Shown piece by piece: positions 12,743 through 13,154 of a DNA stretch of 64,000 nt (the stretch's first letter is position 1; each line of letters begins with the position of its first letter). This DNA comes from Phycisphaeraceae bacterium (lineage in GTDB: Bacteria > Planctomycetota > Phycisphaerae > Phycisphaerales > UBA1924). A program made the translations under genes and the position numbers. The DNA lies in NCBI GenBank assembly GCA_019636625.1, contig JAHBXE010000016.1:1-64000 (forward strand), written 5' to 3'. The notes under the pieces were generated by a model. The model was not told the DNA's origin, searched no databases, and saw only the letters and a program-made list of their open reading frames with translations.

Positions 12743-13154
12743 CGCGCCCGGGGGGACTCGAACCTCCGACCTGCGGTTTCGGCGCTGTCCGGTGCTTTCG
12801 CTCCGGGCCGGACCATCTCTTCACCCTCTCCGGCCAGGTGGCCGAAGGCGGGTGCCGGGCGCTTCGGTCCTCGGGGAGTGGAGCCATCGCTCCGCGATGA
12901 CGCTTCCCAAGTCCCGTGCGGGGGTATTGCCGGGGCGGCTCACCCGCTGGTCTCTACACCTTCCGTCGGCGACATGGTTGCCCATGGCCCCGCCAACGGC
13001 TCGGCTCGGGATTACCCGTCCCACGGTGGGATGTGGGCTTCCCCGAGTTCACCCGGTTCGCCTCGATCCGTTCCGGCCGCGTGCTCGCGACCCCCGGACC
13101 GGGCCCCTCTTTGCTGAAGGAAACCGCCGCTCTATCCAGCTGAGCTACGGGCGC
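12743..13154 (-). tRNA. tRNA-Arg(CCU) interrupted by a group I intron
   Basis: Exon 1 (13118-13154, 37 nt) gives the acceptor strand GCGCCCG, the D arm GCTC/GAGC and the 5' anticodon stem GCGGT, and ends TTCCT, i.e. directly after anticodon base 36. Exon 2 (12743-12779, 37 nt) starts AA, then ACCGC (pairs with GCGGT), a variable loop, the T arm with TTCGAGT, and acceptor strand CGGGCGC plus discriminator G. The spliced tRNA is 74 nt with anticodon CCU; CCA is not encoded. The T stem has one A-C mismatch (GGAGG with CCCCC). Group I introns in this same tRNA are known from some proteobacteria. Confidence 0.9.
12780..13117 (-). ncRNA. Group I self-splicing intron in tRNA-Arg(CCU)
   Basis: 338-nt intron between anticodon base U36 and A37. 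It follows a U at the 5' splice site and ends in G, as group I introns do. Core segments resembling bacterial tRNA introns (subgroup IC3) appear in order on the minus strand: GGGTAATCCCGAGCC (P4/Q, 13003-13017), GGTGTAGAGACCA (R, 12948-12960) and GAAGAGATGGTCC (S, 12810-12822). GACCA in R pairs with TGGTC in S to make P7. G-rich bases at 13104-13107 could serve as the internal guide. No homing-endonuclease reading frame is present, so mobility would have to be in trans. Confidence 0.88.

Follow-up and report, generated by a model that had tools for sequence, protein, structure and literature searches.

A predicted group I intron with an additional P7-P3 domain in a planctomycete tRNA-Arg(CCU) gene

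Introduction

Group I introns interrupt the tRNA-Arg(CCU) genes of alphaproteobacteria, including Agrobacterium and Bartonella (BbgpI) (PMC7717549, with reference to Reinhold-Hurek and Shub 1992 and Paquin et al. 1999). The Bartonella intron self-splices in vitro and is also spliced in vivo (PMC7717549). At this locus (c42404-42711), 308 bp of DNA yield a 76-bp spliced product (PMC7717549). Introns of subgroup IC3 are found in other tRNAs, such as tRNA-Ile(CAU) of Azoarcus and tRNA-Leu(UAA) of cyanobacteria. In IA introns, helices P7.1 and P7.2 are located between P7 and P3. Such helices are used in classifying group I subgroups (PMC3984707). Detection of these introns is a separate matter; tRNAscan-SE is stated not to be designed for it (PMC8450103). 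Certain tRNAs are also targets for mobile DNA. Tycheposons and other tRNA-targeted islands carry a tyrosine recombinase and a complete tRNA gene (PMC10872708). Integrative elements have been proposed as carriers of archaeal tRNA introns (Sugahara et al. 2012, as cited in PMC8371274).

Here, we describe an interrupted tRNA-Arg(CCU) gene in a 64,000-nucleotide stretch of planctomycete DNA (the window). No prior report of a tRNA group I intron in Planctomycetota turned up in the limited literature covered. The locus resembles the alphaproteobacterial introns in the tRNA affected, the CCT directly before the intron, the kind of ribozyme, a sporadic spread and the lack of an annotated tRNA until the intron is spliced out. 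Insertion after U36 of tRNA-Arg(CCU) is likewise shared with that family. Unlike those introns, ours occurs in another phylum.

Results

The tRNA-Arg(CCU) gene occupies positions 12743-13154 on the minus strand of the window, and a 338-nt insert (12780-13117) splits it after U36. The last base of the insert is G. We removed the insert in silico and ARAGORN then called tRNA-Arg(cct). Run without introns on the interrupted gene, ARAGORN found no tRNA. With its intron option the program located the gene, but shifted the splice point by 2 bases and called Arg(ccg). The junction, CCT^AAA, is fixed by uninterrupted tRNA-Arg(CCU) genes of relatives, such as that of genome G072 (Table 1). A previous, sequence-only reading of this DNA had placed two half-tRNAs here, with the break after U36 and a terminal G; ARAGORN and the uninterrupted relatives bear this out to the base. 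The tRNA finder that it proposed as a check thus gave the expected Arg(cct) after splicing out, but erred by two bases with introns allowed. When all 412 nt were compared with other genomes by BLAST, the best non-circular match had E = 2.7e-56 and 71% identity. Because such matches exist in other genomes, the locus is not a product of chance.

Table 1. Features of the interrupted tRNA-Arg(CCU) gene, in window coordinates.
Feature	Position	Strand	Sequence or evidence
tRNA-Arg(CCU) 5' exon, through anticodon U36	13118..13154	-	GCGCCCGTAGCTCAGCTGGATAGAGCGGCGGTTTCCT; ARAGORN tRNA-Arg(cct) on splice-out; 37/37 identical to uninterrupted G072
Predicted group I intron, 338 nt, without endonuclease frame	12780..13117	-	Same-site homologues, covariation, RF00028 on related copies, three-frame translation
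P1 guide GAGGGG	13104..13109	-	GGGG pairs with exon U33-U36 (UCCU), GA with intron nt 1-2
P3 5' strand (CCGGGUG) and J3/4	13048..13056	-	Pairs with 12855-12861; compensatory change in 6/7 pairs
P4-P5-P5'-P4' (P/Q elements)	13006..13046	-	Compensatory-change counts; RF00028 alignment of relatives pairs alike
P6/P6a hairpin	12958..13005	-	Compensatory change in 7/7 P6a pairs
P7 5' strand GACCA (R element)	12948..12952	-	Partner is 12811-12815
P7.1 domain GCGGG-UGA-GCC-GCCCC-GGC-AAUACC-CCCGC	12918..12947	-	Outer stem 5/5, inner stem 2/3 pairs compensatory
Optional second hairpin (P7.2-like)	12864..12917	-	Variable; missing in L017 (G016) and L089 (G267)
P3 3' strand (CGCCCGG)	12855..12861	-	Pair analysis of alignment A2
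P8 hairpin	12822..12854	-	Compensatory change in 4/5 pairs
P7 3' strand UGGUC (S element)	12811..12815	-	Partner of GACCA
P9 hairpin, GAAA loop	12789..12807	-	Lies before the P9.0 partner and terminal G
3' end GCCG: P9.0 partner and terminal G	12780..12783	-	P9.0 covaries G-C / A-U / G.U in relatives
tRNA-Arg(CCU) 3' exon	12743..12779	-	AAACCGCAGGTCGGAGGTTCGAGTCCCCCCGGGCGCG

We conclude that the gene is very probably interrupted by a group I intron that would remove itself from the precursor RNA. The intron is IC3-like, with an extra domain between P7 and P3. This reading rests on same-site homologues, covariation and full-length RF00028 matches to related copies, which uphold the earlier proposal of a group I intron in tRNA-Arg(CCU). 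Briefly, the P3-P9 core is present with its P3/P7 pseudoknot, as judged from pairs, covariation and RF00028 at full length on related copies. The P4, P7 (GACCA/TGGTC), R and S segments lie where the sequence-only reading had put them. The exon ends in a U (U36) opposite a G of the guide, so that the 5' splice site is marked by a U.G pair in P1. Two pairs adjoining P1 covary across 26/26 introns tabulated (TC/GA, TT/AA, AG/CT, GT/AC and GA/TT). The same 26 introns all end in G, set by P9.0.

Compensatory changes were counted in an alignment of 30 distinct sequences (A2). They occur in 32 of 47 core pairs, compared to 9.5 in shuffles and 8-15 in slid controls, and there are 101 cells with change on both sides (17 in shuffles, 14-30 in slid controls); these counts, like the 98% of cells that are paired, are biased towards the structure model because A2 was fitted to it. 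P7, P1 and P9.0 are absent from the model. Hence, the covariation of the P1 extension and of P9.0 arises outside it. In a smaller alignment, of 19 sequences, both-sided change was found in 13 pairs. The compensatory changes across the family argue for selection on the fold. Separately, J4/5 and J5/4 beside P5 (window 13038 and 13014; intron positions 80 and 104) mostly co-vary as G/U, A/C or C/C in alignment A1, which suggests a non-standard contact.

Copies of the intron are 283-349 nt in size and none exceeds 349 nt. Three-frame translation of the window intron revealed no endonuclease. Since the intron is too short and the frames show none, we conclude, as had the sequence-only reading, that no endonuclease is encoded.

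A search with the Rfam model RF00028, the check whose failure the sequence-only reading had named as grounds for refutation, gave no match to the window at E < 1 or even at E < 10. The whole genome also lacked a match, and 0/15 homologous loci reached the gathering score. However, RF00028 matches two related loci (L078 and L079, in G168 and G346) over their full length, with 253/253 positions aligned, E values of 3e-6 to 6e-6 and scores of 31-32 bits, below the 50-bit cut-off. These matches came from the phylum sample and belong to genus g24 of the host family, as do carriers G023 and G082. Their alignments put P3-P8 in the expected places. Because these related copies match at full length, the blank result for the window copy is a false negative. 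The insertion between P7 and P3 likely costs score, to judge from the alignments, and high G+C may contribute.

RF00028 expects two bases between P7 and P3. In the L078 and L079 alignments, approximately 60 nt remain unaligned between GACCA (P7 5') and CGCCCGG (P3 3'). Extra sequence at this position, of ~30 nt or more, is found in every copy of the intron family; the sequence-only reading had missed it. The P7.1 domain contains a conserved UGAG/RAUA internal loop. The compensatory changes of its outer stem come largely from G267, a planctomycete of another family, where GGGCA/UGCCC forms the stem and the UGAG and GAUA strands are unchanged.

The intron shares its P3-P9 core, P4-P6 sequence, R and S segments, anticodon-loop site, small size and lack of an endonuclease with the IC3 tRNA introns. 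Its P4-P7 sequence resembles planctomycete tRNA introns that RF00028 detects, P5abc is absent and L5 is a short hairpin. Two of those planctomycete introns (L070 and L071, IC3-like, in tRNA-Arg(UCU)) have the same core, site and size class, also without an endonuclease. However, when aligned to RF00028, L070, L071 and L074 show P7 followed directly by P3 with no insert, and a short or absent spacer between the two is the trait of the IC3-like comparators. Conversely, the extra helices recall, in their position, the P7.1/P7.2 helices of IA-type introns, whereas the P4-P7 sequence is IC3-like. Because P7.1 and the hairpin are inserted between P7 and P3, we file the intron as IC3-like and not as IC3 or IA. 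On this comparison, the intron represents a new structural variant among IC3-like tRNA introns, distinguished by the P7.1 domain and its optional hairpin. The domain probably braces the P3-P8 helix. Catalysis, this bracing role and any need for helper proteins are inferred. The domain is not expected in the Bartonella intron, which measures ~232 nt compared to 283-349 nt here.

Inserts at this position were also seen in other tRNA introns. An intron of a tRNA(CAU) gene (L093, G529:C211) has a P7-P3 insert, GCGGGGUGAG...AAUAAUCCCCGC, that resembles P7.1. The group I intron L073 (G361:C101) interrupts a tRNA-Asn(GUU)-like gene, seemingly after position 35, and has two different hairpins between P7 and P3.

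Same-site homologues were identified by a search with the structure model in 23/163 genomes, and 16/74 genera, of the host family, Phycisphaerales. Beyond this family, the sole strong match among 392 genomes across the phylum was in G267, from a distant planctomycete family. When 84,980 named species genomes were scanned with a pattern, 15 contigs matched, 14 of them titled Phycisphaerales, Phycisphaeraceae or Phycisphaerae and one titled 'bacterium' only. On a YchF tree of 29 hosts, intron presence costs seven changes, with at least four forced by well-supported branches. A single gain followed by purely vertical descent is therefore rejected. The window copy and the copies in genus g24 are near ychF, where G012 has a CCU gene with no interruption.

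The introns of G049 and G075 are near-identical, although their hosts are only distantly related and the intron is missing from the congeners G150, G006 and G164. In G049, G075 and G015, the intron sits in another kind of tRNA-Arg(CCU) gene. The intron has spread partly horizontally. Hence, of the earlier suggestion that the intron was acquired horizontally or retained, this much stands: several gains or losses are needed and one clear transfer is seen in relatives, but that transfer does not concern the window copy. We considered and rejected a mobile element as the setting of the window copy; 0/4 integrase matches of the genome fall on the window contig. Close to the tRNAs of G049 and G015 that bear the intron, we detected neither an integrase nor attachment repeats. 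The core motif was absent from the viral contigs searched, so no phage source is seen. Matches to tRNA-like halves in G015, G070, G042 and G075:C12 proved to be other tRNAs or relics of other tRNAs.

In G075, the native tRNA-Arg(CCU) is broken within its anticodon arm by an inserted element of ~15 kb (L154, G075:C2:399000-418999). The 5' half lies at C2:416479-416526 and the 3' half at 401462-401505. Both halves, at the two ends of the element, contain the core GTTTCCTAAACG. Sibling genomes keep the gene uninterrupted (75/75 positions in G164, 99% in G006). The element carries a second, intron-bearing tRNA-Arg(CCU) beside a tyrosine integrase with Arm-DNA-bind_3 and Phage_integrase domains. 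It also encodes a Prim-Pol protein, an N6/N4 DNA methylase and a GHKL-type ATPase. In the replacement tRNA, the intron insertion point falls inside the equivalent of the shared core. Compared to Tycheposons, the G075 element is alike in having a tyrosine recombinase and a tRNA gene; its tRNA has a group I intron. Several relatives of the integrase are flanked on one side by a 5' or 3' tRNA fragment and on the other by an intact tRNA with the matching anticodon. These are found at Arg-UCU (L177, L178, L179, L180, L182 and L187) and Thr-UGU (L176 and L185). Such elements seem to form a family that breaks a tRNA at the anticodon loop and brings a substitute.

This bears on why the intron persists rather than on what it is. 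The intron could shield the anticodon-loop integration site, such that integrases cutting the core would fail on the intron-split gene. Anticodon-loop introns would then be kept and spread by masking the tRNA-Arg(CCU) attachment site; elements would carry an intron-protected rescue copy and the ribozyme would be part of the integration strategy. G075 fits, with its native gene broken at the core and the carried gene split by an intron at the corresponding stretch. However, this is a single case, the seeming rescue tRNAs next to related integrases (Arg-UCU, Thr-UGU) lack an intron, and the 23 other carriers, including the window, have no integrase adjoining the intron. We regard shielding as an unlikely reason for persistence.

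The tRNAs of the window genome were counted using RF00005 matches and ARAGORN on fetched loci. Among the 40 others in this 94%-complete draft (41 contigs), none has an intact CCU; the earlier query about an intronless tRNA-Arg(CCU) elsewhere in the genome is answered to this extent, and such a copy may still lie in the unassembled part. The other arginine tRNAs read ACG, CCG and UCU. Since this is the sole CCU tRNA found, splicing is presumably needed to make tRNA-Arg(CCU). Among 120 genomes of the family, a pattern for intronless CCU genes matched in 0/19 intron carriers and 55/101 non-carriers (Fisher p = 4e-6), a value to be taken as indicative because the pattern misses some native CCU genes, for example in genus g7, and related genomes are not independent.

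The gene might instead be a decayed pseudogene with a dead intron, tRNA-Arg(UCU) reading AGG in its place. AGG is rare (3/143 arginine codons in six window genes), tRNA-Arg(UCU) is present, and a 20-nt extension of P2 is unique to the window copy among those aligned. However, no exon stem and no core intron pair is disrupted in this copy, and compensatory changes throughout the family signify selection on the fold. We consider decay very improbable. The anticodon loop is also the usual location of protein-spliced, archaeal-type introns with a bulge-helix-bulge, but the 338-nt length, complete group I P1-P9 pairings, U.G splice site, terminal G and covariation of P3, P7 and P8 leave that reading next to no credence, and the tRNA splicing endonuclease is not known from bacteria.

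For a self-splicing group I intron, the predicted pathway is as follows. A guanosine bound by P7 would attack the U.G pair of P1, on the 3' side of U36. The exon so released would in turn attack after the last G of the intron, joining CCU to AAACC. This joining would restore the anticodon arm.

Discussion

Our analysis adds a covarying, conserved domain of P7.1 type to the IC3-like tRNA introns. The compact, GC-rich ribozyme, with its putative new brace, should be useful for folding studies. Because the whole lineage escapes both the standard Rfam model and ARAGORN run without introns, a seeming lack of tRNA-Arg(CCU) in such genomes may be an annotation artefact.

Through the integrative element in G075, an old idea connecting tRNA introns with integration becomes testable. 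If shielding did prove true, a ribozyme would be serving a strategy for DNA integration.

Group I introns in planctomycetes extend beyond tRNA genes. We also found them within bacterial 23S rRNA genes (L076, L077 and L080, in G260, G372 and G361), where RF00028 scores 38-41 bits.
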